The position numbers and the translations under genes were made by a program. From contig NZ_JH815204.1 of assembly GCF_000296465.1 (NCBI RefSeq), positions 248,001 to 312,000 of the forward strand: DNA of 64,000 nucleotides, given 5' to 3'. Shown piece after piece: positions 17,217 through 35,343 of this stretch. This DNA comes from Barnesiella intestinihominis YIT 11860 (GTDB taxonomy: Bacteria; Bacteroidota; Bacteroidia; Bacteroidales; Barnesiellaceae). Each line of letters begins with the position of its first letter. The first letter of the stretch is position 1. Under the pieces are notes generated by a model, which saw nothing but the letters and a program-made list of their open reading frames with translations, had not been told where the DNA came from and did not search any database.

Positions 17217-17454
17217 CATATTTGTAGTGCCAAAACCTAAGAGCGTATGCTCTCCGGTAGAGTCCCGGTTAACGGCTCAATACGAATTTGGGCTTTTTTT
17301 ATGTCCATACATGTCCATATAAGATATGGCGTGCAATACGATCTTCGGCTGTCTATCCCGTTTGATTTTTCTCTTCGGAGGAGACTCTTAGGTTTTGGCG
17401 AACACGGGAAATGACAGCCGTTTTTCTGTCTATTACGCCAAAACCTAAGAGATT
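17217..17454 (+). promoter_or_regulatory. Cassette A promoter and three-word structured leader
   Basis: A Bacteroidota-type -7 box CATATTTG (17217-17224) puts the transcript start at or just before the 15-nt word GCCAAAACCTAAGAG (17229-17243). The exact reverse complement is at 17385-17399 and a third, direct copy at 17437-17451, three bases before the ORF1 ATG. Between the first two lies a terminator-like hairpin, GCTCAA / TTGGGC followed by T7. A second stem, CGGCTGTC...CCCGT with ACGGG...GACAGCCG, encloses the middle word, and a small hairpin GACAG/CTGTC follows. The middle word can pair with either outer copy but not both. Confidence 0.7.
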
Positions 17455-17754
17455 ATGGACACTACAAAATCCATCGGGATTCAGGGTAAAATTTCCCCTG
17501 CCCGCACAGAACGACAAAACTCTGCGTTCGAAAATTATCTTATCCGTTTTTTTGAAAGAGAGCTCGAAGTAAAGCTCACCCGCCGTGAAATGTGGCGAAG
17601 CGTCCGTTTCGTCGCCTCGTTGTTTGTCTTGTTGCTCGCCCTGTCGACCGGCGAGCCTCTGCCGGTCTTGCCGGCGCTCGCACTGGCAGCTTACGCCTAT
17701 CGGGGCGTAGCCGACATAACCTCCCGTTTTACGGAGAAAGGAGGTGCGCGATGA
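17455..17754 (+). CDS. Cassette A ORF1: small membrane protein, unknown family
   Basis: 99 residues. N-terminal variant type I begins MDTTKSIGIQGKI; the common part starts near residue 25 with ENYLIRFFERELEVKLTRREMWRSV, a charged amphipathic helix, and continues into two hydrophobic stretches (FVASLFVLLLAL and LPVLPALALAAYAY) that could form a helical hairpin in the membrane. The C-terminus is basic. It overlaps ORF2 by 4 bp (ATGA). Near-identical copies occur at 26279 and 35340. A toxin-like or holin-like membrane role is only a guess; I do not recognise the family. Confidence 0.7.
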   Translation: MDTTKSIGIQGKISPARTERQNSAFENYLIRFFERELEVKLTRREMWRSVRFVASLFVLLLALSTGEPLPVLPALALAAYAYRGVADITSRFTEKGGAR

Positions 17755-17981
17755 AAAGCCATACGATCGAGTTCACCCGCGACGACCTGGTCGTTCGGAT
17801 CACCCGCTACCCGGCCGGAGAACCGGGGAAATCGCCGTCGGTAGAGATAGAGGTCGAATCCTCCGGATTGCCCCGGTCGTTCGTATGGTTCGACAGAGAG
17901 CCGCAGTTGTTCGCCTTCAAAGAGATGCTCGAAGAATATATCGAGACATTCCGGCCGATGACAGACGACGCAGACGATTAA
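17751..17981 (+). CDS. Cassette A ORF2: small acidic protein, unknown family
   Basis: 76 residues: MKSHTIEFTRDDLVVRITRY, then a glycine/proline turn, VEIEVESSGLPRSFVWFD and a C-terminal helix FAFKEMLEEYIETF. Predicted small alpha/beta soluble protein. It is preceded by AAAGGAGGTGCGCG, a perfect Shine-Dalgarno at good spacing, unusual for Bacteroidota, in addition to coupling with ORF1. The other two copies are almost identical at the DNA level, pointing to recent duplication or gene conversion. It could be the soluble partner or antidote of ORF1 (inference). Confidence 0.7.
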   Translation: MKSHTIEFTRDDLVVRITRYPAGEPGKSPSVEIEVESSGLPRSFVWFDREPQLFAFKEMLEEYIETFRPMTDDADD

Positions 17982-17998
17982 TCTCTCTTGTTAAATAA

Positions 17999-18060
17999 TA
18001 GTAAAAATACTACTTTTTAATCGGTGTTTATTGTATATCGTAGTAAATATACTATCTTTG
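17999..18060 (+). promoter_or_regulatory. hicAB promoter with two operators
   Basis: Two copies of TAGTA-N4-TACTA (17999-18012 and 18041-18054), 42 bp apart; the second overlaps a perfect -7 box TATCTTTG (18053-18060). HicB antitoxins with a C-terminal DNA-binding domain repress their own operon, so these are the likely HicB sites. Confidence 0.75.
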
Positions 18061-18080
18061 TGGCATAAAAAAAGAACGAT

Positions 18081-18278
18081 ATGAAAGTTCTAAAAACAAG
18101 CTTGGTTCTTAAATTGTTGCTCGACGATGGCTGGGAAATCGTTCATCAGAGAGGGAGCCATCGACAGCTAAAACACCCGGTGAAAAAAGGGAAGGTAACG
18201 TTGAACGGCAAACCTTCCGATGACATCTGGGGCGATAACCTGAAAAGCGTGGAGAAACAATCGGGGCTAAAATTTTAG
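18081..18278 (+). CDS. hicA: HicA-family toxin (mRNA interferase)
   Basis: 65 residues, the normal size for HicA. It has the double-stranded-RNA-binding-like fold pattern LVLKLLLDDGWEIVHQRGSHRQLKHP with the catalytic histidine in GSHRQ, followed by KGKVTLNGKPSDDI. HicA cleaves mRNA and arrests translation unless HicB binds it. The gene has its own promoter and lies upstream of hicB, the usual order. In a prophage such a pair stabilises the element and can restrict rival phages. Confidence 0.85.
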   Translation: MKVLKTSLVLKLLLDDGWEIVHQRGSHRQLKHPVKKGKVTLNGKPSDDIWGDNLKSVEKQSGLKF

Positions 18279-18361
18279 CCCCGGTTCTCCGGCTTTGCAC
18301 AAGACTAAAAAATACTTATTTGTTATACTCCTTATATTACTATTTATAAAATAATACTGTT

Positions 18362-18781
18362 ATGGGACTTTCTAAGCAAAATGTTGTTGTAAATGTTGCG
18401 AAAACCGAGAGCGGCTATTCTGCTTCTTGCGATTTGCTGGACGGTTGGGTAGTGGCTGTTACCGGCGATTGGAGCGATCTGGAAAGAGAGGTCCGAGATA
18501 GCATCGATTTCTATATCGATTGCGCCAAAGAAGACGGGGATAGCTATCCCGAAATTTTCGACCGGGATTACCGAATCGAATATCGATTCGATGTGCAAAG
18601 TTTACTTTGTTTTTATCAGAATATTTTTTCTTTTTCGGCCTTGCAGTATATTACCGGAATCAATCAAAAGCAGTTGGGCCATTATGCTGCCGGCAGGTCC
18701 AAGCCGAGAAAGAAGCAAGCCGAGAAAATCGTAAACGGCTTACATAAATTGGGGAAAGAACTGGCTGCCCTTTCTTTCTAG
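18362..18781 (+). CDS. hicB: HicB-family antitoxin
   Basis: 139 residues, 83 bp after hicA. The N-terminal half has the partly degraded RNase H-like fold of HicB (VVVNVAKTESGYSASCDLLDGWVVAVTGDWSDLEREVRDSIDFYIDCAKEDG). The C-terminal half is a helix-turn-helix (LQYITGINQKQLGHYAAGRSKPRKKQAEKI) suited to bind the TAGTA/TACTA operators upstream. The gap before it is AT-rich and might hold an additional promoter giving antitoxin excess. A terminator follows immediately. Confidence 0.85.
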   Translation: MGLSKQNVVVNVAKTESGYSASCDLLDGWVVAVTGDWSDLEREVRDSIDFYIDCAKEDGDSYPEIFDRDYRIEYRFDVQSLLCFYQNIFSFSALQYITGINQKQLGHYAAGRSKPRKKQAEKIVNGLHKLGKELAALSF

Positions 18782-18805
18782 TTAAGCCCGTTACCGAATA
18801 TCCGG

Positions 18806-18870
18806 CCCCGTATCTCGAAGATACGGGGTTTTTTTGTCTTTTTGGAGAATGCCGCATAGTTCTATTTTTG
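18806..18870 (+). promoter_or_regulatory. Terminator-promoter junction closing island 1
   Basis: Stem CCCCGTATCT / AGATACGGGG and seven T (18806-18835) end hicAB; TTTG at 18841-18844 and a perfect -7 box TATTTTTG at 18863-18870, 18 bp apart, restart transcription of the late genes. The same joint, with a compensated T.G pair in the stem, is at 26830-26893. Confidence 0.8.
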
Positions 18871-18889
18871 AGTACAAAATAGAAGGCGT

Positions 18890-19975
18890 ATGATAGTAGG
18901 GCTCAATACTTGGTTTAGCGATATTATATTCACCTCGGCATTCCCGGACCTTGAACTGGTTTCAGACCAGAATTGGGAGCGCCTCGAACTTTGGGCAGGA
19001 GAACGATCGATATTCTCTGTCTACCTTTGTGCGAACGAAAATGGTCTTATTTATTTGACCGATTTAGGGCAAGTAATGGAGCAATACATGATTGAAAATC
19101 GGCTGCCATTTGCCTCTTTTTCTCTTCGAGAGAGTCCTGAACGTCCGGAGGATCCTTTTCGCCGTGATTTTGTCGCTGTATTTTCCAGCTATTTTTGGGA
19201 CGATTATGCCGAATCCTTTATCGCCCAAAATTTCCTGACGACTTTGTCCGCGAAACAAATATCTTCGTCGGCATACGATATGGTCGCTTTCATCTCGAAA
19301 AAGGGAGAGAATATCACCGTTCGCCATCATGTCGTATTCTATGCCGACGGGATTCTCGGAACGATGGACTGGGAAAACGAGGGGATAGAAGAAAAGGATA
19401 TCGCGCAGCATGATATCAACGTGTCGGCTATGAATTATGAGGCGGAAATTCAGGAGTCATACCCGGACAAAGAGATAAAGCTCCTCTCTCTCTCCGTGTC
19501 GGTAGGTCCTCGAAATATTACCTACTATGTCATCGATCGAAAGAATCTCACCCAGATGTTTTTCATCAACGCATTCAATGTGTTCGAGCTCTTCGAGATT
19601 CAAGGTGTTACCACCGCAAAGACAACCGTCGAGCGAGATACGGCTGTGATCAATCGCCGGGAGACATTCTACGACCGGACAATCGAAAAAAAGTATGAGG
19701 TGCAAACGTCAGCTCTTTCTTCCCCGGTGAAGGACTGGGTGGAGCAGTTCCTGTTCTCTCCGCTCGTGAAGATGTTCGACCCCGACGCCGATTCTATCGA
19801 TGAGATGACCGAGGTCCTTATCACCGAATCCGCTTGCGAAATCAGTAATTCGAATACCGAACTCGGCAAAGTGAAATTTACTTGGAAATATGCCGATGTC
19901 TATCCCCGTCTAAATTCTATCGATAGGGAAACAAAGGACCTTTTTTCACAACAGTTCGAGTTCCAATTTAAATAG
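18890..19975 (+). CDS. Hypothetical phage protein, 361 residues
   Basis: First gene after the restart promoter, 2 bp before the next gene and so co-transcribed with the portal operon. Soluble, mixed alpha/beta, no membrane segment; the N-terminal 120 residues contain WFSDIIFTSAFPDLELVSDQ and LYLTDLGQ-like strands, the second half is strand-rich. I do not recognise it. It could be a late virion protein or a remaining cargo gene; its base composition matches the neighbouring phage genes rather than the AT-rich cargo. Confidence 0.6.
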   Translation: MIVGLNTWFSDIIFTSAFPDLELVSDQNWERLELWAGERSIFSVYLCANENGLIYLTDLGQVMEQYMIENRLPFASFSLRESPERPEDPFRRDFVAVFSSYFWDDYAESFIAQNFLTTLSAKQISSSAYDMVAFISKKGENITVRHHVVFYADGILGTMDWENEGIEEKDIAQHDINVSAMNYEAEIQESYPDKEIKLLSLSVSVGPRNITYYVIDRKNLTQMFFINAFNVFELFEIQGVTTAKTTVERDTAVINRRETFYDRTIEKKYEVQTSALSSPVKDWVEQFLFSPLVKMFDPDADSIDEMTEVLITESACEISNSNTELGKVKFTWKYADVYPRLNSIDRETKDLFSQQFEFQFK

Positions 19976-19977
19976 TT

Positions 19978-20211
19978 ATGGCGCAATCTATTCACATCAA
20001 TACCATGCGGGAAATGCTGAAAGCCGGCGATCCTGTCGATATAACTCTTTGGACAAAATCCGGCCAGATACAGCGCTGGCGGAATTGCATATCCCTTCGT
20101 TACGATTTTTATAAAGGGGTTCGTCGGGTGAAGCTGCTCGACAGCCGCCAAATTCGCACGGTACGCGATGTGTGCATCTTTGAAATCAACAATCTAACAG
20201 TATTCTTATGA
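19978..20211 (+). CDS. Small phage protein upstream of portal
   Basis: 77 residues (MAQSIHINTMREMLKAGDPV...). Basic, with two short strands and a WRNCISLRYDFYKGVRRVKLLDSRQIRTVR stretch, spread here over two pieces. It overlaps the portal start by 4 bp. Proteins of this look precede portal genes in Bacteroides prophages as far as I recall; no function is known to me. A small assembly or head-neck factor is plausible. Confidence 0.55.
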   Translation: MAQSIHINTMREMLKAGDPVDITLWTKSGQIQRWRNCISLRYDFYKGVRRVKLLDSRQIRTVRDVCIFEINNLTVFL

Positions 20212-21560
20212 GCGATTTTGAGCCTATCGACTTTACGAGCATCGACGATATTCCCGGTATCAATGCAAAAGCCTTGTTCTCTTCGGAACTGAGCAAAACA
20301 GAGTTTCGTGAAACAGGCGATATTTCGCCCGTTCCCATAGGAGATAAGCATCGATATATGCCCTGGGGAGCCGACGACCAGCTTCCGTATGATATTCTCG
20401 AGCTGATCGAGCGCGACGAAACCTTGTCGACCTGCCAGATGTTCAACGCCGAAATTTGCTATGGGTCGGGGCTTCTCTACAATACCGAGGCCTGTTCGGA
20501 AAAAGTCAAGGAAGAAATTGATTCCTTCTTCGTCGGGAATAATATACCGACAAACTATCTGGGTGTATGTCAGGACTTCAAATACTTTGCCTTTTGCGTG
20601 AATGTCATTATTTTGAACGGAGACGGTTCGAAAATAATTCGGTTAATAAGAAAAGAAGCCTGTTACTGTCGCCTGGGGGTTGCCGATTCAAATGGCCGCA
20701 TCGATAAACTGTACTATGCAAATTGGCGGAAAGCTAAGCCGATGGAAGACCAGGTCGAAATCATCGACCTGCTCGACTTGAATGCTCCGCTCTGCGACCT
20801 TATGGTACGCATGGGGCGCATGCCCGGCGACGACGGGGAAACACGCATGAGAACGGACACAAGGAAATTTGCCGTTCTGACAAAGGTTCCTACTCCCGAT
20901 AATACCTATTATCCGATACCCTATTATGCTTCGCTATTCCGGGGACGGTGGTACAACATCAAGCGACTTATTGGCCTGGCCAAGGAGGCCAAACTCAAGA
21001 ACTCGGCGCCCATCAAATACCACATTGAAATTTCCGACAAATACTGGACCGGTATCTTCCGGGCCGAAGGAATCACGGATAGAGCCAAACAACAGGCGAG
21101 GGTTGTCGAAGAGAAGAAGAAAATACTCGAATTTCTTACCGGTGTCGAAAATAGCGGGAAGGCTTGGTTCTCCCAGGTTTACACCAATCCGAACGGCGAT
21201 GTCGTACATGATGTCGTCATCAACAAGATAGAGACCGACAAGGAGGGCGGCGACTGGGCTTCTGATATCATCGAGGCCGTGAACATGATATGCTTCACCA
21301 TGCGGGTTCATTCCAACCTGGTCGGCTCCGTGCCGGGGAAGGCGCAGACCAACAACAGCGGGAGCGACAAGCGCGAACTCTACACTATCGCCCAGGCCTT
21401 GCAGAAGCCCTATCACGATTTGCTCTTCACCGTTCACAACCTTGTTATCCGATTCAACGAATGGAAAGGCGCATATCCCGACTGCCCCTTCATTATGCTC
21501 ACGACACTCGACGAAAAAAACGACGCGAAAACAGTTACCGTTAATACTTCCGAAATATGA
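20208..21560 (+). CDS. Portal-like protein
   Basis: 450 residues. The N-terminal region (RYMPWGADDQLPYDILELIERDETLSTCQMFNAEICYGSGL) is typical of portal proteins that begin with an unstructured arm and a helix-rich wing; the middle and end contain a long helix with DRAKQQARVVEEKKKILEFL and the motif VGSVPGKAQTNNSGSDKRELYTIAQ resembling the conserved clip/stem end of siphovirus portals. It would form the dodecameric DNA gate at one capsid vertex. It lies after, not before, the terminase and capsid genes, which is unusual. Confidence 0.75.
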   Translation: MSDFEPIDFTSIDDIPGINAKALFSSELSKTEFRETGDISPVPIGDKHRYMPWGADDQLPYDILELIERDETLSTCQMFNAEICYGSGLLYNTEACSEKVKEEIDSFFVGNNIPTNYLGVCQDFKYFAFCVNVIILNGDGSKIIRLIRKEACYCRLGVADSNGRIDKLYYANWRKAKPMEDQVEIIDLLDLNAPLCDLMVRMGRMPGDDGETRMRTDTRKFAVLTKVPTPDNTYYPIPYYASLFRGRWYNIKRLIGLAKEAKLKNSAPIKYHIEISDKYWTGIFRAEGITDRAKQQARVVEEKKKILEFLTGVENSGKAWFSQVYTNPNGDVVHDVVINKIETDKEGGDWASDIIEAVNMICFTMRVHSNLVGSVPGKAQTNNSGSDKRELYTIAQALQKPYHDLLFTVHNLVIRFNEWKGAYPDCPFIMLTTLDEKNDAKTVTVNTSEI

Positions 21561-22381: not shown

Positions 22382-22398
22382 CTTTAATTTTTTTTGAT

Positions 22399-24203: not shown

Positions 24204-24230
24204 CAATCCCCAATCGTTGTATAGTTTTAT

Positions 24231-24728
24231 ATGGGAAAACTTGAACTGGTAATAGAGTCTGAGAATATCAGCATTTATTCTCCAAAATTTGATGGGGAGA
24301 CTGCGACCGAGTTCGAGAAATTCATGTTTATCAATAGAGATTTGTCTTATCCCCAGTTGAAGAGAGATTTCGATGCTATTATTAGCGTCATTAAGAAAAT
24401 GACTGATGATTGTGGTGCGAGAGAAAACCTTTTTAGATTGGAAGGAGGAAATATTAAAGCCATACCGCTCTGTGTCTCCCTTCGCCGCAAAGATCGGTCT
24501 GTTGGAACGTTGCGATTATATTGTATCCGGATATCGGATAAGATACTTGTTATAGGGAATGGCGGAATAAAGAGAACTGACACTTTTCAAGAAGATCCGG
24601 CTCTACTCGGTATAGTAAATCGACTCAGGCAGATTGAACATCAGATTTTTGTTGAATCCAAAAAAGCTCATGTCAATTACTATGACTTCGATAAAATGAA
24701 ACCGATAATTGAAACTATCACCATTTAA
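24231..24728 (+). CDS. HigB/RelE-like toxin candidate of a three-gene TA-chaperone operon
   Basis: 165 residues. The part LRLYCIRISDKILVIGNGGIKRTDTFQEDPALLGIVNRLRQIEHQI has the typical end of RelE/HigB-type toxins (two strands, a turn, then a helix), preceded by a basic strand CVSLRRKDRSVGT. It is longer than a classical HigB because of an N-terminal helical addition. It is followed after 9 bp by an XRE antitoxin gene and then a SecB-like gene. By comparison with TAC systems it would be a ribosome-dependent mRNA endonuclease. Activity is inferred. Confidence 0.55.
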   Translation: MGKLELVIESENISIYSPKFDGETATEFEKFMFINRDLSYPQLKRDFDAIISVIKKMTDDCGARENLFRLEGGNIKAIPLCVSLRRKDRSVGTLRLYCIRISDKILVIGNGGIKRTDTFQEDPALLGIVNRLRQIEHQIFVESKKAHVNYYDFDKMKPIIETITI

Positions 24729-24737
24729 ATATAAATT

Positions 24738-25121
24738 ATGAAGAAGATTCCACTATTTGAACAATGTGTTGCAAATGTTGCTCCTGAGGTGATGGAGGAG
24801 GTAAATCTCAACATTGACATTGCAAACAGAATTTATGACCTTCTCAAAGCTAAGAATTTGACTCAACACGAGTTCGCTTCCCGTATGGGTAAGCGCGATT
24901 CGGAAATCTCAAGATGGCTGACAGGAACTCATGGTTTTACAACGGCGACTCTTGCTAAGATTTCAGCGGTTCTCGGGGAGCCTATCGTTGAAGTTCGCCG
25001 AGATCCAGAGACTAAGTATGTCTTTATGTCGATGCCTTCTTATAACAGCTCATTAGGGATTTCTGGCAATAGTTATACTAGTCATGAGACTAATTCATGT
25101 GTTATTTCATACGAAAACTAA
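24738..25121 (+). CDS. XRE-family antitoxin (HigA-like)
   Basis: 127 residues. The central helix-turn-helix reads LNIDIANRIYDLLKAKNLTQHEFASRMGKRDSEISRWLTGTHGFTTATLAKISAVLGEPIVEV, split in the usual five-helix pattern. The C-terminal 30 residues are flexible and hydrophobic-poor (SSLGISGNSYTSHETNS); in TAC systems the antitoxin tail is the part recognised by the dedicated chaperone. The antitoxin should also repress the operon promoter. Confidence 0.75.
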   Translation: MKKIPLFEQCVANVAPEVMEEVNLNIDIANRIYDLLKAKNLTQHEFASRMGKRDSEISRWLTGTHGFTTATLAKISAVLGEPIVEVRRDPETKYVFMSMPSYNSSLGISGNSYTSHETNSCVISYEN

Positions 25122-25127
25122 TTTATT

Positions 25128-25562
25128 ATGGCAGGGCGTGATGTAAATGTTCAAATGGGGCTTACTTCTGTCGATGAAGTAAGTTTTATGATGTTGCCGG
25201 GTAAGGTTACTGAAGATGTGCGGCCCGGAAATATAAAACTTGGTTTCTTCAATCAGATTCAACCCGAAGTGGAGAGTGATAAGATTGCCCTAATATTCGG
25301 TGTTAAGTATGAATTGGAGGACGATAAAATCCTTGAATGTGTATATCGCTTTGAATTTAGAGTGAACGGTTTGGATCGATTCATTACTACGCATGATAAA
25401 GAGGGCATCACGGTTACTTACATCATGCCACTTCTTATTAATGTGGCGATCGGTACTATGCGAGGAATCTTAGTTGTCAAAACGGCTGGGACGAATCTTT
25501 CGAAGTACCCGCTTCCTATAATAGATTCGGTTCGATTGACTCAAAGTCTGTCCAATCCTTAA
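25128..25562 (+). CDS. SecB-like chaperone of the TA triad
   Basis: 144 residues, 6 bp after the antitoxin gene. The second half, with VYRFEFRVNGLDRFI and LLINVAIGTMRGILVVKTAGTNLSKYPLPIIDSVRL split across it, matches the SecB-like pattern of strands followed by the conserved LPxLINxAxGTxRGIL helix. In toxin-antitoxin-chaperone systems the SecB-like partner folds and protects an aggregation-prone antitoxin. Here it completes the triad on one transcript. Confidence 0.6.
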   Translation: MAGRDVNVQMGLTSVDEVSFMMLPGKVTEDVRPGNIKLGFFNQIQPEVESDKIALIFGVKYELEDDKILECVYRFEFRVNGLDRFITTHDKEGITVTYIMPLLINVAIGTMRGILVVKTAGTNLSKYPLPIIDSVRLTQSLSNP

Positions 25563-25627: not shown

Positions 25628-25660
25628 GTATTATCCCTTGCTCGTTTCAAAAAAATCCCT

Positions 25661-25871
25661 CATATTTGCAATGTCAAGCATTTGAAACAGGCGACGAGGT
25701 TCGCCAACATAGCCGTTGGCATTTTTTGTGCCCATCGGTCAATATATAGTTCCGTCCCGTGTGGAGCGTTAATGCGCCCACAGCCTGTTTCAGGTGCTTG
25801 ACAACGGGGAGCGGAACTTTTTTGTTCCCTTCCCGTCCTTAACATATTGTTTCATTTAATTGTCAAGCAAA
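25661..25871 (+). promoter_or_regulatory. Cassette B promoter and three-word structured leader
   Basis: -7 box CATATTTG at 25661-25668. Word TGTCAAGCA at 25672-25680, reverse complement at 25795-25803, direct copy at 25861-25869 just before the ATG. The first two words are part of a 21-bp stem (25672-25692 with 25783-25803) that includes TGAAACAGGC/GCCTGTTTCA and two T.G positions. Inside it, GCCAAC/GTTGGC (25703-25720) with a following T6 is an intrinsic-terminator-like hairpin; after it comes a GC-rich hairpin with a U-rich loop. If transcribed to the end it reads into a truncated ORF1. Confidence 0.7.
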
Positions 25872-26264
25872 ATGAAAAAAACAGTCGTGTTGCCTGTATC
25901 GCAGGCAAAAGAAGGCCGTAAAACGTCGGCCTTAGAGAAATCCCTCATTCGATTTTTCGAGCGGGAGCTCGAAGTAAAGCTCACTCGCCGTGAGATGTGG
26001 CGAAGCGTTTCTTTTTTCGCCCGATCTCTTGCTTTTCTCGAAAAGAACCCCCATCTTTGCAATGCTGAACATTTTGAGAAGGCGACGATGTTCGCCAACT
26101 TTGCCGTTGGCATTTTTTATGCCTATCGGCTGATATTATATAAGTTCCGACCCCCGTGTGGAGTGTTAATGCACCCACGGCCTTCTCAAGGTGTTCAGCA
26201 GCGGGAAAGCGGAACTTTTTTTGTTCCCTTTCCCGTCATCAGTCAACATATTGTTTCATTTTAA
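25872..26264 (+). pseudogene. Cassette B ORF1, 5' part fused to the next leader
   Basis: Starts MKKTVVLPVSQAKEGRKTSA (type II N-terminus) and follows ORF1 as far as MWRSVSFFA, about 54 codons. There the coding sequence is replaced by the promoter and leader of cassette C, through which the frame stays open to a TAA at 26262, 14 bp before the ATG of cassette C. ORF2 is missing. The same junction is present in cassette D, so it is an inherited arrangement, not a random break. Whether the fusion protein is made is unknown. Confidence 0.6.
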
Positions 26265-26278
26265 ACTGCTGAACAAAA
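26052..26278 (+). promoter_or_regulatory. Cassette C promoter and three-word structured leader
   Basis: -7 box CATCTTTG at 26052-26059. Word TGCTGAACA at 26063-26071, reverse complement at 26192-26200, direct copy at 26267-26275 before the ATG. The 21-bp stem (26063-26083 with 26180-26200) keeps the two T.G positions, but its inner arm is TTGAGAAGGC/GCCTTCTCAA, a compensated change relative to B and E. The terminator-like hairpin GCCAAC/GTTGGC and T run are conserved. Confidence 0.7.
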
Positions 26279-26566
26279 ATGAAAAAAACAGTCGCATTGC
26301 CTGTATCGCAGGCAAAAGAAGGGCGAAAGACATCGGCTCTTGAAAATTACCTCATTCGATTTTTCGAGCGGGAGCTCGAAGTAAAGCTCACTCGCCGTGA
26401 GATGTGGCGAAGCGTTTCTTTTTTCGCCTCGCTATTCGTCTTGCTGCTCGCCCTGTCGACCGGCGAGCCCCTGTTGGCCTTGCCGGCGCTCGCACTGGCA
26501 GCCTACGCCTATCGGGGCGTAGCCGACATAACCTCCCGTTTTACGGAGAAAGGAGGTGCGCGATGA
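26279..26566 (+). CDS. Cassette C ORF1: small membrane protein, unknown family
   Basis: 95 residues, type II N-terminus (MKKTVALPVSQAKEGRKTSA), then the shared ENYLIRFFERELEVKLTRREM helix and the hydrophobic pair SLFVLLLALSTGEPLLALPALALAAY. It is identical to the cassette A protein over most of the C-terminal half and overlaps ORF2 by 4 bp. This is the complete member of the B/C tandem. Confidence 0.7.
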   Translation: MKKTVALPVSQAKEGRKTSALENYLIRFFERELEVKLTRREMWRSVSFFASLFVLLLALSTGEPLLALPALALAAYAYRGVADITSRFTEKGGAR

Positions 26567-26796
26567 AAAGCCATACGATCGAGTTCACCCGCGACGACCT
26601 GGTCGTTCGGATCACCCGCTACCCTTCCGAAGAACCGGGGAAATCGCCGTCGGTAGAGATAGAGGTCGAATCCTCCGGATTGCCCCGGTCGTTCGTATGG
26701 TTCGACAAGGAGCCGCAGTTGTTCGCCTTCAAGGAGATGCTCGAAGAATATATCGAGACGTTCTGGCCGATGAAAGACGACGCTGGCGGTTCATGA
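26563..26796 (+). CDS. Cassette C ORF2: small acidic protein, unknown family
   Basis: 77 residues, almost identical to the copies in cassettes A and E (for example P-S-E-E in place of P-A-G-E after ITRY). The same strong Shine-Dalgarno AGGAGGT precedes it. The acidic C-terminal tail differs slightly between copies. It is the last gene of island 2. Confidence 0.7.
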   Translation: MKSHTIEFTRDDLVVRITRYPSEEPGKSPSVEIEVESSGLPRSFVWFDKEPQLFAFKEMLEEYIETFWPMKDDAGGS

Positions 26797-26911: not shown

Positions 26912-27607
26912 ATGGCTCAAATCGACGAAATCAAAGCGAAAATCAAAGCACTCCGCGCAGAAACCGAAGCGAACAGCATCACCCCCGACAGTCTCGGGCT
27001 TATTCTTGACGATATGGCTTCTTTGATTGGCAGCCAAAATTCTGGCCCTATCGGAGTAGCATCACCATACATCGACATCACGCTGAAAATAGAACAGGGG
27101 AATCTTGTCCTGTATCCGGTCGAATACCTACCGACTGGGGCGGATGCCTCGACGTTTGAAATTCGCCTCATGCGCCATGTCTCTACGCGAGACAGGAATT
27201 TTGATAAAAAAGGGTATCGAAAAGTGGCCGGCTGGCGAATCCCGCAGAACGTAAACAACCCGGAATCAAGGTTCCAGTTCTATCGGTGGCCCTATACGCC
27301 CGGAGCCGCAACCATAATTTCGAATACACCTGATGAGATTGGAGGACAAGTTGTGGAAGACAAATTCCCGAGAGTCATTGTCCATTATGGCCGATATAAA
27401 CAAGAATTCATCTTTACAGAAACACCGCATGGTAAAAGTCGAGAACAGATTGTAGTTCGACAGTTTGGCCTGGCTGTGTTCGACGGGAGAACTCGAATTT
27501 CGAATATCGCAAGGTTCTCGCTTCGAGTAGTCGGTAATGAAATTCCCAATGGCGTTGATTTCTCATTCACTTTTGAAAAAGGGGAAATGTTAAAGGAGAA
27601 GATATGA
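26912..27607 (+). CDS. Phage tail-associated protein (fibre/baseplate type)
   Basis: 231 residues from the ATG at 26912, 18 bp after the -7 box. The N-terminal 45 residues (MAQIDEIKAKIKALRAETEA...SLGLILDDMASLIGSQ) form a helical trimerisation-like segment that I recognise from Bacteroides phage tail proteins; the rest is beta-rich (ITLKIEQGNLVLYPVEYLPTG). It probably forms part of a tail fibre or its attachment. It is followed by a pair of hairpins, then by the receptor-type protein. Confidence 0.6.
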   Translation: MAQIDEIKAKIKALRAETEANSITPDSLGLILDDMASLIGSQNSGPIGVASPYIDITLKIEQGNLVLYPVEYLPTGADASTFEIRLMRHVSTRDRNFDKKGYRKVAGWRIPQNVNNPESRFQFYRWPYTPGAATIISNTPDEIGGQVVEDKFPRVIVHYGRYKQEFIFTETPHGKSREQIVVRQFGLAVFDGRTRISNIARFSLRVVGNEIPNGVDFSFTFEKGEMLKEKI

Positions 27608-27612
27608 AAAAA

Positions 27613-27685
27613 GCCCGAAGACTATTCAGTCGGGCCTACAAAAGGATTTTTCACTCCGGACTGCCCGAAGACTATTCAGTCGGGC
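27613..27685 (+). repeat. Two tandem 23-bp hairpin repeats
   Basis: GCCCGAAGACTATTCAGTCG and the following GGC form a 23-bp unit at 27613-27635 and again, identically, at 27663-27685; the period is 50 bp. Each folds as GCCCGA(AG)ACT / AGTCGGGC with an ATTC loop. They stand in the 108-bp gap between two tail genes. A double terminator/attenuator or protein-binding pair is likely; there is no long T run. Confidence 0.7.
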
Positions 27686-27715
27686 TAGGACAAAGATACT
27701 TATTATATATAAAAT

Positions 27716-29602: not shown

Positions 29603-29603
29603 T

Positions 29604-30038: not shown

Positions 30039-30081
30039 TCGTCTTTCGAAAGACAGTCCATTATATAAAATCTAAAAGAAA

Positions 30082-30666
30082 ATGAAGGTGATTCTAGACA
30101 ACGGACATGGTCGGGACACAGCGGGAAAGAGAAGCCCGGACGGAAGGTTAAGGGAGTATGCCTATGCCCGTGAGATGGCCCGCAAGATAGCGCAGGATTT
30201 GAAACGACAGGGTATCGATGTATCCTTGCTCGTTCCCGAAGATACAGACGTTCCTTTGAAGGAGCGTGTGGAACGAGCGAACCGAATTTATGCGGAAACT
30301 GGCAAGCAGGCTATACTCGTATCGATACATGTCAATGCCGCCGGTAACGGTTCGACATGGTTTTCGGCCAGAGGGTGGAGCGTGTTCGTCGATCCGGCGG
30401 CATCGCAAGACAGCGAGCGGCTTGCGACGTCCATAGCCGAAGCCGCCGGAAACATCGGCCTGACGGTACGCATGGAGACGGGCGGCCGCAATTATTGGGT
30501 AAGTAGCCTTTACATCTGCAAACACACGAATTGCCCGGCCGTATTGACAGAGAATCTTTTCCAAGATAACCGGGAGGACGTGGATTATCTTTTGAGCGAT
30601 GCGGGCAAGCAGGCGATAGTCCGTTTGCACGTAAAAGGAATTATCGATTATCTGAACTCGTTATGA
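30082..30666 (+). CDS. N-acetylmuramoyl-L-alanine amidase (endolysin)
   Basis: 194 residues. Amidase_3 signatures: ILDNGHGRDT (first zinc histidine and nearby region), REYAYAREMARKIAQDL (with the glutamate), ILVSIHVNAAGNGSTWFSARG (second histidine) and NCPAVLTENLFQDN (catalytic glutamate). It cleaves the bond between MurNAc and L-alanine in peptidoglycan. No signal peptide is visible, so release depends on the holin encoded just upstream. It overlaps the next gene by 4 bp. Confidence 0.9.
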   Translation: MKVILDNGHGRDTAGKRSPDGRLREYAYAREMARKIAQDLKRQGIDVSLLVPEDTDVPLKERVERANRIYAETGKQAILVSIHVNAAGNGSTWFSARGWSVFVDPAASQDSERLATSIAEAAGNIGLTVRMETGGRNYWVSSLYICKHTNCPAVLTENLFQDNREDVDYLLSDAGKQAIVRLHVKGIIDYLNSL

Positions 30667-31154
30667 AAACATTGCCCTGGCTTCTCGTCGGTATGCTTCT
30701 CGTTGTCGCTTTTTGGGGCTGGTTACGCCCCGTCGATACCGCTCCCGAGGGAAATCGGGAGAAAGACACCGCGACGTTTGTCGATACGATTCCCTACTTC
30801 GTCCCGGTTCCCCGGGATAGCATAGTAGTGAAATATGTCATTGCACGACTTCCGTCCGCTGTCGATGATAGTGTCGGGAGCCATGCAGTCGACACCGTAC
30901 ATCGGAGCGATAGCGTTGCGGTCGCTATTCCCATTACGCAGAAAGTCTATGAAGACAGTACCTACCGAGCCTATGTGTCGGGGTATCGTCCGAGACTCGA
31001 CAGTCTGTTTCTCTTTCCGAGGACGCAGATTATCACCGTTCGGGAGAAGCCCCGCAGGTGGAATATCGGAGTCGGAGCCGGTTATGGCCTTACCCCGCGA
31101 GGTTTCCAGCCATTCGTCGGGGTGACGGTTAGCTATACTCTTTGGGCGTTCTGA
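30663..31154 (+). CDS. Single-pass inner-membrane protein with outer-membrane-type C-terminus (spanin candidate)
   Basis: 163 residues. N-terminal TM (LPWLLVGMLLVVAFWGW), a periplasmic stretch rich in charged and proline residues, and a C-terminal beta motif IGVGAGYGLTPRGF...VGVTVSYTLWAF that ends in phenylalanine, as outer-membrane barrel strands do. Directly after holin and amidase, this matches what a one-protein spanin linking inner and outer membranes needs. Proteins of this DUF6808-like type are frequent in Bacteroidetes phages as far as I recall; the spanin role is inference. Confidence 0.6.
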   Translation: MKTLPWLLVGMLLVVAFWGWLRPVDTAPEGNREKDTATFVDTIPYFVPVPRDSIVVKYVIARLPSAVDDSVGSHAVDTVHRSDSVAVAIPITQKVYEDSTYRAYVSGYRPRLDSLFLFPRTQIITVREKPRRWNIGVGAGYGLTPRGFQPFVGVTVSYTLWAF

Positions 31155-31180
31155 TAGTTGTTTTTAGTTAGAATGAGCGA

Positions 31181-31215
31181 TGCAGTCTGCTTGTGAAAGC
31201 GGGCTGCATTTTTTT
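31181..31215 (+). terminator. Terminator after lysis genes, left edge of island 3
   Basis: 10-bp stem TGCAGTCTGC / GCGGGCTGCA with loop TTGTGAAA, followed by eight T. The loop equals that of the terminator at 16101-16129. Confidence 0.88.
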
Positions 31216-31248
31216 ATAGATACGCCTCGATACCGGGCTTTTGTACAT

Positions 31249-31273
31249 ATTCCGCTATTTCGAAATACGGAAT
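31249..31273. repeat. Near-perfect 25-bp palindrome in gene-free stretch 31216-31540
   Basis: ATTCCG C TATTTCGAAATA CGGAAT: the inner 12 bp are a perfect palindrome and the outer six pair, with a single extra C. No gene is present from 31155 to 31540; apart from the terminator and this element I see only AT-rich sequence. A protein-binding site or the scar of an insertion is possible. Confidence 0.55.
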
Positions 31274-31540
31274 CTGCTTTTGTTTTTCAGGGCAGTAGGG
31301 GGCACTTCCGACTGAAAGAAGGAAAAAAAATTCCTTTTTGAACCCCTAAGAGCTTATTTTTTAGGGTATTAAGTTTTTGAAGGCTGGAAAAAGTGTGGGG
31401 ATTTGAAAAAAATATAGAAATGAATATGTTTCAAAAAATTGATTTTCAGATTTTTATAATTAAAATCGTAATATTCTATCGAGAAACGAACCGTTTTGTT
31501 TCCCAAAATAGTGCGGTCGTCGACTAGGGCTTATTCAATT

Positions 31541-31960
31541 TTAGTTTTGGTTTTTGATTTCGTCGAAGAGTCTGGATAATCTATCGTTTCTTTTGGCGAT
31601 AGTATTTATTTCGCATTGCCAAATTACTATCACATGCCACCCTTTTTCTTTTAATTCTTCGATTTTACGGGAGTCTCGTTCTATATTTTTTTCTATTTTA
31701 GGAATCCAATAGTCGGTATTGCTACTGGGTCTATGACCGGCGCGACACGAATGTCCGTGCCAGAAGCAACCGTGAATGAAAATGGCTGTTTTATATTTTT
31801 TCAAAACGATATCGGGAGAGCCCGGCAAACTTTTGAAGTTCGTCCTGTATCTTAGGCCTCTTGAAAATAGATATTTACGAACTTGTATTTCGGGGCGAGT
31901 ATCTTTTCGCTTGACTTTCGACATTATTTCGGATCGTTTCTCTTTACTGCAAGAATCCAT
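31541..31960 (-). CDS. vsr: Very-short-patch repair endonuclease (Vsr)
   Basis: 139 residues, the usual length. Signature parts are MSKVKRKDTRPEIQVRKYLF, GSPDIVLKKYKTAIFIHGCFWHGHSC with the catalytic aspartate and the histidines of the FWHGH motif, and a C-terminal KEKGWHVIVIWQCEI. Vsr nicks next to T in T:G mismatches that arise by deamination of 5-methylcytosine and so protects the genome from the partner methyltransferase. It is divergent from that gene; both share the palindromic promoter. Confidence 0.93.
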   Translation of the reverse strand: MDSCSKEKRSEIMSKVKRKDTRPEIQVRKYLFSRGLRYRTNFKSLPGSPDIVLKKYKTAIFIHGCFWHGHSCRAGHRPSSNTDYWIPKIEKNIERDSRKIEELKEKGWHVIVIWQCEINTIAKRNDRLSRLFDEIKNQN

Positions 31961-31997
31961 AATTATATAAAAATTATTCTATTTTCAAACTCTTTCC

Positions 31998-32017
31998 CTA
32001 TCTTTGTACAAAGATAG
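31998..32017. promoter_or_regulatory. Perfect 20-bp palindrome with a -7 box on each strand
   Basis: CTATCTTTGTACAAAGATAG equals its own reverse complement and contains TATCTTTG, a perfect -7 box, in both directions. It therefore supplies face-to-face overlapping promoters: rightward to the methyltransferase (ATG 32034) and leftward to vsr (start 31960). Only one polymerase can use it at a time; it could also bind a dimeric regulator. Confidence 0.8.
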
Positions 32018-32033
32018 ACACTTTGAAAGAAGA

Positions 32034-33101
32034 ATGGACGATATGTCGAAACAAAATCGAATAGGGGTAATCGACCTGTTCTGCGGGATAGGAGGATTGA
32101 GCTATGGATTGAAACGCAAAGGGCTGAAAATCATAGCGGGATTCGATGTCGATAAGACTTGTAAATTCGCATATACTTATAATAACGAGGCCGAATTTTT
32201 CGATACGGATATTACACGAGTGACCGATGAACGGATTCGATCTCTTTTCGGGAATCATGAGATCAAAGTTTTAGCGGGTTGTGCTCCATGTCAGCCGTTT
32301 TCTTCGTATTCATTCAAGCATAAGGAAAAAGACCCGAATAAATACGATTTATTGTATGAATTCGGGCGATTGGTCGACGGTGTCGAGCCGGATATCGTTA
32401 CGATGGAGAATGTAACGCAGATCGCTCGTTTTAAGTTAAAACCGGTTCTACAAGATTTCGTCGAGCTGTTAAACGAAAATGATTATCATGTAAGTGTAAA
32501 CGAGGTTTATTGTCCCGATTACGGAATACCTCAGACGAGAAAAAGATTAGTGCTTTTGGCTTCTAAATTCGGAGATATAGAATTAATACCTCCTACGCAT
32601 ACTCCCGACGATTACGTGTCGGTAAAGTCCGTTATCGGCGATTTACCAGAGATTGAAGCCGGAGAAACGGATAAGAACGACCCGTTGCATAGAGCCAAGT
32701 CGCTTTCTCCGTTAAATCTCTTACGCATTCGAAGTACCCCCTATGGTGGAAGTTGGAAAGATTGGCCGGAAGAGTTGAGATTGAAATGCCATAAAACAGA
32801 TGCCGGGAAGTCGTTCGGAAGCGTGTACGGTAGAATGGTATGGGAGTCGCCTGCACCTACGATGACGACACAGTGTACAGGGCTAGGAAACGGCCGATTC
32901 GGACATCCTTCGCAAGATCGTGCTATATCGGTCAGAGAAGCCGCATTGATACAGACTTTTCCTAAAACCTATAAATTCTTTTCCGATGAAGAGCGAGTCT
33001 CTATTACTAAAGCATCTAGGTATATCGGGAATGCTGTCCCTCCGAGATTGGGAGAAATAATAGCAGAAAGTATAATTAACCATATAATAAAAATATTATG
33101 A
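32034..33101 (+). CDS. C5-cytosine DNA methyltransferase
   Basis: 355 residues from the ATG at 32034 (32043 also possible). Motif I VIDLFCGIGGLSYGLK, motif IV VLAGCAPCQPFSSYSF with the catalytic cysteine in PCQ, motif VI TMENVTQ, motif VIII YGIPQTRKRLVLLAS and motif X ASRYIGNAVPPRLGE are all present, so the enzyme is complete. It methylates cytosine in a specific site; the site cannot be read from sequence. It overlaps the GHKL ATPase gene by 4 bp and shares the promoter with vsr. Confidence 0.94.
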   Translation: MDDMSKQNRIGVIDLFCGIGGLSYGLKRKGLKIIAGFDVDKTCKFAYTYNNEAEFFDTDITRVTDERIRSLFGNHEIKVLAGCAPCQPFSSYSFKHKEKDPNKYDLLYEFGRLVDGVEPDIVTMENVTQIARFKLKPVLQDFVELLNENDYHVSVNEVYCPDYGIPQTRKRLVLLASKFGDIELIPPTHTPDDYVSVKSVIGDLPEIEAGETDKNDPLHRAKSLSPLNLLRIRSTPYGGSWKDWPEELRLKCHKTDAGKSFGSVYGRMVWESPAPTMTTQCTGLGNGRFGHPSQDRAISVREAALIQTFPKTYKFFSDEERVSITKASRYIGNAVPPRLGEIIAESIINHIIKIL

Positions 33102-34753
33102 AAACGTACACTTTTAATATATCTCTTAGTATCCTTAATCATTTAGGACGAAATTTATATAGGAGTTTTATAACTGTATTGGGGGAAGCTATTTCAAACT
33201 CGTGGGATGCTGATGCTACTAATGTAAATATTTGTGTGGATAAGGAGAAAAATATTCTTGTTATTCAAGATGATGGGAAAGGGATGACAGATTATGATTT
33301 TCAGAATAAGTTCTTGAAAATTGGGTATTCTAAGCGAAAGGGTAATATAATAAAAACAGACTCGGGCCGTCCTTTTATTGGAAGAAAGGGAATTGGGAAA
33401 TTAGCATTGTTGTCTTGTGCCAAAAGAATAACAGTAATAACAAAGACTGAGAATACAGACATAGTTGGAGGTGTTATTGATAATTCTGGTTTGGATGAGG
33501 CTATAAAAGATGATGTTTCGGCAAATGAGTATAATCTTATGGAACCATCAGAAAGGATAATAGAGGAATATACACGAAGTTTGTCCCATGGGACTGTAAT
33601 TGTATTTGAGGAGATCAATGATGGCATAAGGAATAGAGTCGACTATATACGAAAATTGGTCGCTTTGTATTTCCGATTTTCTTTATTGGATCCTAATTTC
33701 AATATAGTATTAAATGATAAGAAAATCAGTTTGGAAGAACTGAATGAGCTTGTAGATAATACGCAACTTTTATGGGAAATAAATAGTCCTAATGATCCAT
33801 ATTTAAAAGATTATTTAAAAAATCGAAATTCATTAAAACGAAATGTGAATCTAAAAGTAGATGCGATTGGAATAAATGGTTTTATAGCATCTGTGGCGAA
33901 ACCTTCGATGCTAAAAATTCGAGGCTCAGAAGAAAAAGTGAGTATAGACTTATATGTTAATGGGCGGATCAGAGAGAAGAACATATTAAAACACATTCCG
34001 ACTGCAAGAATTGTTGAGAGTTACTTATATGGGCAGATTCATTATAATGAATTAGATGATGAAAATGACCGCTTTACGAGTAGTAGAGAGGGTATTGTCT
34101 CTGATGATCCCAAATTCTTGGGATTACTTCAAGAATTGGAGACGTTGTTAAAGAGAATTATAGAAGACTGGGATATTTGGCGCACAGAATTAAAGCAGGA
34201 AGGTGATTCGGAGAATACAAGAATTCCTCCGAAGGATAGAAAATCAAAAGAACTGTTTAATGAAATTTCGAAAGATTTTGTACCAGAGGGGACAAGTAAT
34301 GCAAATAGGAAAAAGGTGGAGCAATGGATTGCAGAGTTAGATGAAGATGCAACATTTAATTTTACTTCTTATGGAGAGTGTTTTATTTCAGAAAACCTTT
34401 TGAGAAAGTATATTAGAGAAAAATCACTTGATTTAAGCGATAAAAAGAAAGAAATAGAAAAATGGAGGAAAACTGCTGAAAATGCAAAGAATTCAGCTAA
34501 TATTAGTTTTGATATAAGGGAAGACGATAGTGATCTTTCGTATTTTTCAATGGACGATTTGACTTATTTGGTTGAACCAATATCTAAAGGAGACCTTAAA
34601 AAGGCTAGTTTACATCGAGATGCTCAAGAATATAAACCTATTAGAGACGCTATGGCCCATACATCAAGATTGACAAGAGCCGCGAAAAATAAATTGAATG
34701 CAACATATGAAAATATCAAGGCTAGGATAATTCATTTACTTAGTGAGATTTAA
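33098..34753 (+). CDS. GHKL-type ATPase of a restriction-modification locus (MORC/MutL-related)
   Basis: 551 residues. Bergerat-type ATP site: N box GEAISNSWDADATNV near residue 30, G1 IQDDGKGMTD near 58, then GRKGIGKLALLSC near 92. The C-terminal half is helical and charged, ending with a helical domain that has RDAMAHTSRLTRAAKN. In many bacterial loci such ATPases accompany a C5-methyltransferase and a Vsr-like nuclease and are considered the restriction-linked relatives of MORC and MutL (established work of Iyer and Aravind). No separate restriction endonuclease gene is present here. The gene is markedly AT-rich compared with the phage backbone. Confidence 0.8.
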   Translation: MKTYTFNISLSILNHLGRNLYRSFITVLGEAISNSWDADATNVNICVDKEKNILVIQDDGKGMTDYDFQNKFLKIGYSKRKGNIIKTDSGRPFIGRKGIGKLALLSCAKRITVITKTENTDIVGGVIDNSGLDEAIKDDVSANEYNLMEPSERIIEEYTRSLSHGTVIVFEEINDGIRNRVDYIRKLVALYFRFSLLDPNFNIVLNDKKISLEELNELVDNTQLLWEINSPNDPYLKDYLKNRNSLKRNVNLKVDAIGINGFIASVAKPSMLKIRGSEEKVSIDLYVNGRIREKNILKHIPTARIVESYLYGQIHYNELDDENDRFTSSREGIVSDDPKFLGLLQELETLLKRIIEDWDIWRTELKQEGDSENTRIPPKDRKSKELFNEISKDFVPEGTSNANRKKVEQWIAELDEDATFNFTSYGECFISENLLRKYIREKSLDLSDKKKEIEKWRKTAENAKNSANISFDIREDDSDLSYFSMDDLTYLVEPISKGDLKKASLHRDAQEYKPIRDAMAHTSRLTRAAKNKLNATYENIKARIIHLLSEI

Positions 34754-34814
34754 GATTAAATTTCTTTGGGCGTTGAATTCAATTTAAGGACATAATAAGT
34801 TTTATTTGTTATTA

Positions 34815-34932
34815 CGAATATCGGCTGTCTTTCCTGTTCATTTTTTTGCGCTCGACGCATCAAGATGGTTTGTTTGGCGACACGGGAAATGGCAGCCGTT
34901 TTTCTGCCTGAAAATGCCAAACAAACCATCTT
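34815..34932 (+). promoter_or_regulatory. Cassette D partial leader (two words only)
   Basis: The 3' part of a type I leader: stem CGGCTGTCTTTCCTGT pairing with ACGGGAAATGGCAGCCG, the reverse word AAGATGGTTTGTTTGGC at 34862-34878 and the direct word at 34916-34932, immediately before the ATG. The hairpin GGCAG/CTGCC (34891-34908) is the compensated counterpart of GACAG/CTGTC in cassette A. The first word and the promoter are missing; the end of the ATPase gene is only about 60 bp away, so cargo seems to have replaced them. Confidence 0.65.
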
Positions 34933-35343
34933 ATGGACACTACAAAATCCATCGGGATTCAGGGGAAAATTTTCTCCGCCCGCACTGAACGACAGAATTC
35001 TGCGTTCGAAAACTATCTTATCCGTTTTTTTGAAAAAGAGCTCGAAGTGAAGCTTACCCGCCGGGAGATGTGGCGAAGCGTTTCTTTTTTCGCCCGATCT
35101 CTTGCTTTTCTCGAAAAGAACCCCCATCTTTGCAATGCACTACATTTGAAACAGGCGACGAGGTTCGCCAACAAAGCCGTTGGCATTTTTTGTGTCCATC
35201 GGTCAATTTATAGTTCCGTCCCGTGTGGAGCGTTAATGCGCCCACTGCCTGTTTCAGGTGTAGTGCAACGGGGAGCGGAACTTTTTTTGTCCCCTCTCCG
35301 TGTTTATATTTTATTTATTCATTTTAATGCACTACAAAAATGA
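34933..35343 (+). pseudogene. Cassette D ORF1, 5' part fused to the next leader
   Basis: Starts MDTTKSIGIQGKIFSARTER (type I, as in cassette A) and follows ORF1 to MWRSVSFFA, then continues through the promoter and leader of cassette E without a stop until the TGA at 35341, which overlaps the ATG of cassette E (ATGA). Junction and following 40 bases are the same as in the B/C tandem. If translated it would couple to the next gene. Confidence 0.6.
35125..35339 (+). promoter_or_regulatory. Cassette E promoter and three-word structured leader
   Basis: -7 box CATCTTTG at 35125-35132. Word TGCACTACA at 35136-35144, reverse complement at 35259-35267, direct copy at 35328-35336, three bases before the ATG. 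The 21-bp stem (35136-35156 with 35247-35267) has the same inner arm TGAAACAGGC and the same two T.G positions as cassette B, while the word itself is different. The inner terminator-like hairpin GCCAAC/GTTGGC with T6 is retained. Confidence 0.7.

Follow-up and report, generated by a model that had tools for sequence, protein, structure and literature searches.

Prophage cassettes of Barnesiella intestinihominis carry leaders that probably act as self-addressed antisense RNA switches on the plan of C4 and CI

Barnesiella intestinihominis YIT 11860 carries small gene cassettes whose leaders contain a short word three times, and we analysed these leaders in a 64,000-nucleotide (nt) stretch of contig NZ_JH815204.1 (RefSeq assembly GCF_000296465.1, positions 248,001 to 312,000 of the forward strand), referred to here as the window and numbered from its first letter. 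The window contains a prophage, with a terminase (14089–16065), a portal-like protein (a weak match), a tape measure protein and an integrase (42106–43314) that adjoins a tRNA. Cassette A is placed after the terminase, and the pairs B–C and D–E lie further down the late genes, all on the plus strand. In A, B, C and E, a word at the predicted transcript start (word 1) is followed by its reverse complement (the anti-word) and then by a direct copy at the start codon (word 3); this plan had been given in a preliminary description, and its coordinates were verified, with all four triples exact. Cassette D, as also described, keeps only the reverse complement and the third, direct copy; a first copy was sought and not found.

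Read 5′ to 3′, the leader plan consists of the TTTG of a promoter-like stretch (called with the Bacteroidota promoter consensus), word 1 a few bases past it, a first terminator hairpin, an antisense module, word 3 and the ATG. In A, word 1, the target copy at the predicted transcript start, occupies 17229–17243; the antisense hairpin, placed by sequence and folding and also the predicted terminator T2, spans 17346–17425 with the anti-word (17385–17399) in its loop; and word 3 (17437–17451) lies 3 nt before the ATG at 17455. Open reading frame (ORF) 1 of A (17455–17754, 99 amino acids (aa)) overlaps ORF2 (17751–17981, 76 aa) by 4 nt. The leader of B starts with word 1 (25672–25680), which has an extension to 25692, and continues with a predicted first terminator, T1 (GCCAAC..GTTGGC-ATTTTTT, 25703–25727, by sequence and fold), the antisense module and T2 (25747–25825, by fold and a match to module model R1) with its anti-word at 25795–25803, an antiterminator arm predicted by folding (25824–25836, z only −1.8), and word 3 (25861–25869), 2 nt before the ATG at 25872. 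The gene that follows is a shortened ORF1 copy (25872–26264) that continues through the leader of C. There, word 1 (26063–26071, with extension 26063–26083), the R1-matching module and T2 (26142–26223, anti-word 26192–26200) and word 3 (26267–26275, 3 nt before the ATG at 26279) precede ORF1 (26279–26566) and ORF2 (26563–26796). The pair D–E repeats this arrangement: D has an antisense hairpin and T2 (34822–34903, anti-word 34862–34878) that matches R1 weakly (19.3 bits, E 0.11), word 3 (34916–34932) directly before the ATG at 34933, and a shortened ORF1 (34933–35343) that runs into the leader of E, which has word 1 (35136–35144, with extension 35136–35156), an R1-matching module and T2 (35211–35289, anti-word 35259–35267), word 3 (35328–35336, 3 nt before the ATG at 35340), ORF1 (35340–35627) and ORF2 (35624–35854). 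All words were placed by sequence. A and D have other scaffolds and inner parts than B, C and E, with the same order of elements and longer words.

In the whole window, A, B, C and E alone have exact triples of this kind (words of at least 9 nt, span up to 320 nt), whereas 150 dinucleotide shuffles of the window gave a mean of 0.087 triples and a maximum of 1. The words had been called unrelated, which is not entirely so: B, C and E have words built on one frame, TG-----CA, around a variable core. In these three leaders, complementarity of word 1 to the middle copy also reaches beyond the word itself, forming 21-nt arms that are 90% complementary, in which word 1 and its extension pair with the anti-word and the third stem of the module.

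Beyond this prophage, other Bacteroidota genomes and IMG/VR phage contigs have leaders with the antisense module. For nine B-type leaders drawn from three genomes, the antisense pairs with its own word 1 at 81/81 positions and with its own word 3 at 78/81, counting G–U; of all 362880 permutations of the nine, 4 equal the observed value, which is the number expected from two words that occur twice. C and its counterpart b66b in the Barnesiella metagenome-assembled genome (MAG) bin66 differ by one core letter, which is altered in all three copies, the third copy of b66b being otherwise frayed. A search with the module pattern returned 40 IMG/VR contigs, 39 of which contain a leader or a cut part of one when inspected by eye (L060 does not). 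Together, the window (B, C and E included), bin66, Barnesiella sp. An55 and IMG/VR provided 42 distinct leaders with 26 words, leaving out two solo modules and one truncated leader (L042). Word 1 matched its own anti-word at 9/9 positions in 33 leaders and at 8/9 in 9, and thus at at least 8/9 in 42/42; word 3 did so at 9/9 in 29, 8/9 in 9, 7/9 in 3 and 6/9 in 1 (at least 8/9 in 38/42). When anti-words were swapped between leaders, at least 8/9 was reached in only 119/1678 comparisons for word 1 and 109/1678 for word 3, and with one leader per word, 0 of 20000 permutations reached the observed match sums. Allowing G–U improves three of the four weaker word 3 copies, two of them to 9/9; L045 has no recognisable word 3 copy.

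The same pattern was found in a held-out set of 23 module matches in loci not used for model building (6 in 6 IMG/VR contigs, 3 in two Porphyromonas gingivalis phages and 14 in further genomes), which gave 22 distinct leaders with 22 words once a duplicate (L102) was dropped. At least 8/9 was reached by 19/22 own pairs compared with 25/462 swapped pairs for word 1, and by 14/22 compared with 17/462 for word 3. Co-variation of the three words among homologues, on which the preliminary description had staked its model, was therefore seen in the nine B-type leaders, in the 42 and in the held-out set. As to spread, model R2 (E of at most 0.001) matched in 3/345 genomes of a phylum draw, 10/393 of an order draw and 1/149 of the family of genome G639, the draws overlapping in part and the larger ones being run with stricter filters; a plasmid search with leader B gave no match.

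The positions of the words within the leaders bear on what kind of element this is. TTTG stands just before word 1 in 42/42 leaders, and the ATG overlaps word 3 in 14/42, which may explain the constant TG of the words, or follows it by 0–3 nt in 27/42. Direct copies that flank an inverted copy, in cassettes repeated within a prophage, could also suggest an RNA that processes itself or acts as a guide, or a mobile DNA element, with the middle word directing cleavage at both outer words in the manner of a group I internal guide or of IS200/IS605. The fixed promoter and start-codon positions argue against this, as do the different genes that follow the same module; moreover, no Rfam ribozyme or intron reached its gathering threshold in the window, and no transposase was present among the part of the window proteins that was scanned. 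We therefore regard this explanation, which the preliminary description had listed as its third option and for which we found no support, as very improbable.

In B, C and E, the outer stem of the module runs into a U-tract and encloses two inner stems, with the anti-word left single-stranded. Across 44 distinct modules, 95.6% of cells are paired compared with 86.7% when shuffled, double changes number 97 cells compared with 23.9 when shuffled and 6 to 12 when slid by 1–3 columns, and the covariation score is 0.265 compared with 0.098, in an alignment that was fitted to the structure and so favours this result. The third stem and the outer portion of the outer stem provide this support; the inner portion of the outer stem shows little variation.

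We then computed partition-function folds, which describe equilibrium without proteins or kinetics, taking the nascent RNA to begin with word 1 and end with the U-tract. As long as word 1 was free, the T2 stem in the nascent RNA had a mean probability of 0.01 over the 42 leaders, whereas word 1 paired with the anti-word at 0.95 on average (above 0.5 in 42/42 nascent RNAs and 40/42 full leaders). Masking the 9 nt of word 1 raised the T2 stem to 0.88 (above 0.5 in 40/42), and masking 22 nt raised it to 0.91 (42/42). In the full leader, pairing between anti-word and word 3 averaged 0.02 with word 1 free (above 0.5 in 1/42) and 0.63 with word 1 masked (28/42). The folding model thus predicts two effects of word 1 in these 42 leaders, prevention of the terminator and protection of the start. 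Transcription yields word 1 at the beginning and the 3′ arm of the outer stem at the end, an order that should make word 1 pairing the kinetic default.

By computed duplex energy, own pairs outdo those with other leaders. The antisense binds its own word 1 with a mean of −33.3 kcal/mol compared with −14.5 kcal/mol for those of others, and its own word 3 with −14.8 compared with −6.1 kcal/mol; its own leader is the best partner in its row in 25/26 cases for word 1 and 21/26 for word 3.

Two further modules stand alone. In An55, solo modules with neither word 1 nor word 3 lie just upstream of the promoters of other cassettes (L027:7079–7160 and L028:6909–6991), with outer stems changed on both sides and one mismatch kept in each. 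The solo word TGCACTACA also occurs in the full leaders of window E, b66c and L058, and the solo word TGCTCAACA in the full leaders L031 and L065.

The plan of the leaders resembles that of two known coliphage RNAs. In the record of phage P1, a1 (48255) and b1 (48269) precede C4 (48343–48419), followed by a2 (48423), b2 (48452), icd (48470–48691) and ant1 (from 48688), so that a promoter, a target copy, an antisense RNA, a target copy at the start, a small ORF and a gene overlapping it by 4 nt are common to P1 C4 and to the leaders. The topology of Rfam C4 (RF01695, with c4-a1b1, RF03163; the C4 RNA of P1 and P7) is by eye that of the module: an outer stem, P2, P3 and single-stranded antisense before the 3′ outer strand. 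The R1 and R2 modules have this outer stem, two inner stems and junction antisense, whereas the inner parts of A and D differ; target copies lie both upstream, as a1b1 does, and downstream over the start, as a2b2 does. By eye, the junction segment of P1 complements a1 and its P3 loop complements b1, much like the anti-word and third stem here, and antirepressors follow the leader in several loci, where they may be targets as in C4. The leaders differ from C4 in their words and scaffold sequence, in the presence of several cassettes in one prophage, in an outer stem that ends in a U-tract (a predicted terminator), in a P3 with mostly a 3-nt loop and in a word 1 predicted to act as a cis antiterminator. 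According to PMC5320573, C4 specificity is set by only a few letters; the taxa that Table 1 of PMC2864571 gives for C4 are Proteobacteria, in contrast to the Bacteroidota here.

The second likeness is to the CI RNA of satellite phage P4 (seqA–seqB–seqC), which PMC4825925 describes as an antisense segment complementary to upstream and downstream target copies, with premature termination. Our word finder, run on the P4 cI region, returned TTCACAGG, its complement and TTCACAGG again at 8651, 8463 and 8384, in the order seen in the leaders; other 8-letter triples in that region lay in ori repeats or were T-rich. The 8651/8463/8384 triple is presumably seqA/B/C. P4 CI controls a replication operon, whereas the leaders here precede antirepressors or ORF1/ORF2. 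IsrK of the Salmonella prophage Gifsy-1 is a leader with two uses, as a small terminated RNA and as the beginning of the mRNA for an operon that leads to anrP. AnrP is an antirepressor. The IsrK small RNA opens translation in trans, whereas the leaders here are predicted to close it. The module would work like C4 and CI, a likeness of plan for which we do not claim common descent.

On this evidence, each leader is probably a C4/CI-like antisense RNA switch that addresses itself through a private word. The promoter would yield an RNA that carries word 1 as the first target copy, the first terminator, the antisense module and word 3 as the second target copy, on or before the start codon. The module would be a three-stem RNA in which the outer stem doubles as T2 and the anti-word is exposed. 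With no antisense RNA around, word 1 would pair with the nascent anti-word, T2 would be blocked and the polymerase would read through, leaving word 3 free in B-type leaders and the gene ON. Once antisense RNA is present, whether made by earlier transcripts or by solo modules, it would instead cover word 1 of new transcripts; T2 would then form, transcription would stop and more antisense RNA would be made. In any read-through mRNA, the anti-word, acting in cis or in trans, would bury the start, so that the gene would be OFF and stay OFF. The variable core would give each cassette its own address. The words, their co-variation, the covariation of the fold and the gene context are observed directly, and the folding switch is computed; trans action, feedback, processing and immunity are the parts of this mechanism that we infer.

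The genes placed behind the leaders suggest what such a switch might control. Proteins downstream differ among the IMG/VR leaders, and the RNA is thus not tied to ORF1/ORF2. We picked first and second ORFs mechanically after 64 leaders, which gave 63 with a first ORF (L093 had none and was dropped), 54 with a second, some of these in the wrong frame, and 114 distinct proteins. Pfam matches (E of at most 1e-4) were to SymE_toxin (4), Phage_pRha (3), ANT (KilAC, 3), Bro-N (2), KilA-N (2), P22_AR_N (1), AntA (1) and IF2_N (1); these are raw counts rather than enrichments over phage genes at large. Apart from one, the recognised families are thus antirepressor-type or SymE, and most of the 114 proteins have none. 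Antirepressor-type N-terminal domains account for 9 matches (pRha 3, Bro-N 2, KilA-N 2, P22_AR_N 1 and AntA 1, among 114 proteins and 63 leaders). Single scans gave AntA in L057, pRha in L032, L053 and L101, KilA-N and P22_AR_N in the second ORFs of L045 and L054, respectively, Bro-N with ANT in L082 and Bro-N in L081. The leader of the P. gingivalis phage BK068097 comes after a gene annotated as an anti-repressor, near two genes annotated as repressors, and phage BK068110 has two tandem leaders. Annotated coding sequences overlie leaders in BK068110 (L095, 2202–3461) and BK068097 (L096, 3467–4036) and are likely annotation artefacts. In many loci, an antirepressor would be the controlled gene, which makes immunity or lysogeny control the likely role there. 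In some bacterial genomes, the controlled gene is, judging by sequence matches, a SymE-family toxin (two in G639 and one each in G038 and G213; single scans placed SymE in L075, L077, L089 and the second ORF of L080), and in this prophage it would be ORF1/ORF2.

The SymE matches, 4 of the 114 downstream proteins, raise the question of whether the cassettes are type I toxin–antitoxin systems, in which ORF1 would be toxic, the leader RNA a private antitoxin, and persistence a matter of addiction rather than immunity. P1 icd, at the same place in P1, is annotated as an inhibitor of cell division, ORF1 of C contains a hydrophobic stretch, and the cassettes adjoin accessory genes. However, ORF1 of A, C and E matched no Pfam or PHROG family and ORF2 no Pfam family better than E 0.017, antirepressors are common putative targets as well, and an antitoxin that shares promoter and strand with the mRNA offers no obvious post-segregational killing. 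In SymE/SymR, the antitoxin RNA comes from the opposite strand over the toxin start; this arrangement was not found here, the module lying upstream on the same strand, with the opposite strand not searched for promoters. We consider addiction unlikely as the purpose of the cassettes, and it differs from self-addressed antisense control in purpose only, the RNA mechanism being shared.

Several observations weigh against the self-addressed antisense switch, beginning with cassettes A and D. Nascent A behaves as the other leaders do (word 1:anti-word 0.99, T2 0.0, and T2 0.99 with word 1 masked), but complete A pairs its anti-word with word 3 (0.99) even when word 1 is free. D, which has no word 1, forms T2 when nascent (0.99) and pairs its anti-word with word 3 when complete (0.98). 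Both are therefore predicted to be OFF in cis at equilibrium, and cis and trans control are not separated for A and D. The mutual exclusion of the two pairings proposed in the preliminary description accordingly stands in the folds of the 42 leaders, B, C and E among them, and does not extend to complete A.

These same folds also speak for a switch acting purely in cis, one in which the middle word of a single molecule takes word 1 (ON) or word 3 (OFF) as its partner, as set by a ligand, a protein, transcription speed or 5′ trimming. Exclusion is seen on masking word 1, the preference of A for word 1 when nascent and for word 3 when complete resembles a timing switch, and D, lacking word 1, pairs with word 3. 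Yet word 1 dominates so strongly in B-type and related leaders that its occupation or removal would be required; antisense modules also exist alone, with neither word 1 nor word 3; the variable core resembles an address and not a ligand site; and the plan is that of C4, a trans-acting RNA. Control in cis only is thus quite unlikely. The preliminary description is borne out in part: its exclusion of pairings is supported by folding, but a purely cis switch leaves the displacement of word 1 unexplained. Its second option, an attenuated leader RNA that acts in trans, fits better, because the module is a terminator-like hairpin with exposed antisense, occurs alone in An55 and shares the C4 plan.

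Further points that count against a self-addressed antisense switch concern its parts. Masking word 1 in the complete leader brings the T2 stem above 0.5 in only 11/42, because the anti-word goes to word 3. A T2-terminated RNA keeps word 1 and should hide its own anti-word, so that processing, such as that of C4 by RNase P to about 77 nt, or another source would be needed. Transcripts, their starts and the small RNA are predictions from sequence and folding. The antisense segments of B and E are computed to cross-pair with each other's extended word 1 (−23.0 and −24.8 compared with −36 kcal/mol for their own), which is confined to the extended word 1 and not seen on word 3. An antiterminator helix is clear only in ORF1-type leaders (z below −2 in 23/42; B −1.8); a swapped control did not discriminate, and we keep this helix as a subtype feature only. 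Among held-out leaders, 8/22 lack a word 3 and 3/22 a word 1 at at least 8/9; these have either decayed or are controlled by termination alone. Words within one genome always differ (0/28 pairs shared), but chance expects 0.56, and we rejected this as a signal. The antirepressor link is not seen for cassettes A–E. Finally, Rfam C4 found no match at E of at most 1 in 6 loci, nor at E of at most 10 in leader B, whereas the same kind of search found P1 C4 at 2.7e-13, and R2 does not match P1 C4.

Other Rfam families gave little. A gathering-threshold scan of the window returned only a tRNA, and E-value matches to STnc40, MicX and other families were far below gathering scores and were set aside. 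Pedo-repair RNA (RF01715) aligned below threshold with leader B (25640–25900), over the word 1:antisense helix and the hairpin that follows; at 16.2 bits of a gathering score of 150, this is a lead only, and a Pedo-repair search that found no copies in 198 genomes found none in 14 controls either and is hence uninformative. This orphan Pedobacter family may share the design.

If the addresses are interchangeable, the modules could form a wider system. We put forward tentatively, as a possibility rather than an expectation, a Bacteroidota-wide form of RNA-only immunity or silencing with interchangeable addresses, in which a self-perpetuating terminator gives a bistable OFF state, several differently addressed copies coexist in one prophage, solo modules are stored immunity against phages with the same word, and SymE toxins of bacterial genomes are kept in check likewise. 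Since the 66 modules use 40 words, coincidental matches between solo and full words would not be rare, and stored immunity is accordingly a hypothesis.

The cassettes themselves seem to mark insertion spots for accessory genes. Two relatives, An55 and bin66, carry ORF2, and ORF2 is present in 3/9 genomes of the family and 2/393 of the order draw (both of the genus); it has no match in named phages. A structure model of ORF2 (predicted local distance difference test (pLDDT) 70) gave weak Pur-alpha-like Foldseek matches, at best E 0.44, and was not used. By eye, bin66 has one cassette after the terminase and another after the same gene cluster that precedes B. Directly before A, a protein at 16339–17130 has a Pfam match to Abi_C (abortive infection C-terminus); in the bin66 prophage, by eye, no Abi_C gene lies between terminase and cassette. 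Two small genes after A (18082–18781) resemble a HicA/HicB pair by eye. The three-gene cluster before B (24231–25562) includes an HTH_3 protein (24738–25121), and in L005 the bin66 cassette, by eye, also has this cluster in front of it. After a phage gene, two copies of GCCCGAAGACTATTCAGTCGGGC at 27603–27687 form terminator-like hairpins. Accessory genes also lie before D (31541–34753): a small minus-strand gene that is Vsr-like by eye (31541–31960), a cytosine-methyltransferase-like gene (32004–33101, PHROG DNA methyltransferase) and then a 551-aa gene, an ATPase by eye. These genes may have displaced the promoter and word 1 of D.

Phage immunity through a short antisense RNA with a swappable address is already known in phages of Proteobacteria, and in the titles, abstract beginnings and passages covered, which exclude most subscription papers, we saw no description of this RNA in Bacteroidota. 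An Rfam search of the kind suggested in the preliminary description matched no family to the leaders searched, and standard annotation would therefore miss the module. The leaders offer a set of differently addressed RNA switches, and, if the mechanism is true, a five-letter core would tell which prophages can be expected to silence one another. The same plan in Bacteroidota phages and prophages, placed before antirepressors, SymE-family toxins and cassettes of unknown function, would offer a handle on the control of lysogeny in an important group of gut phages.

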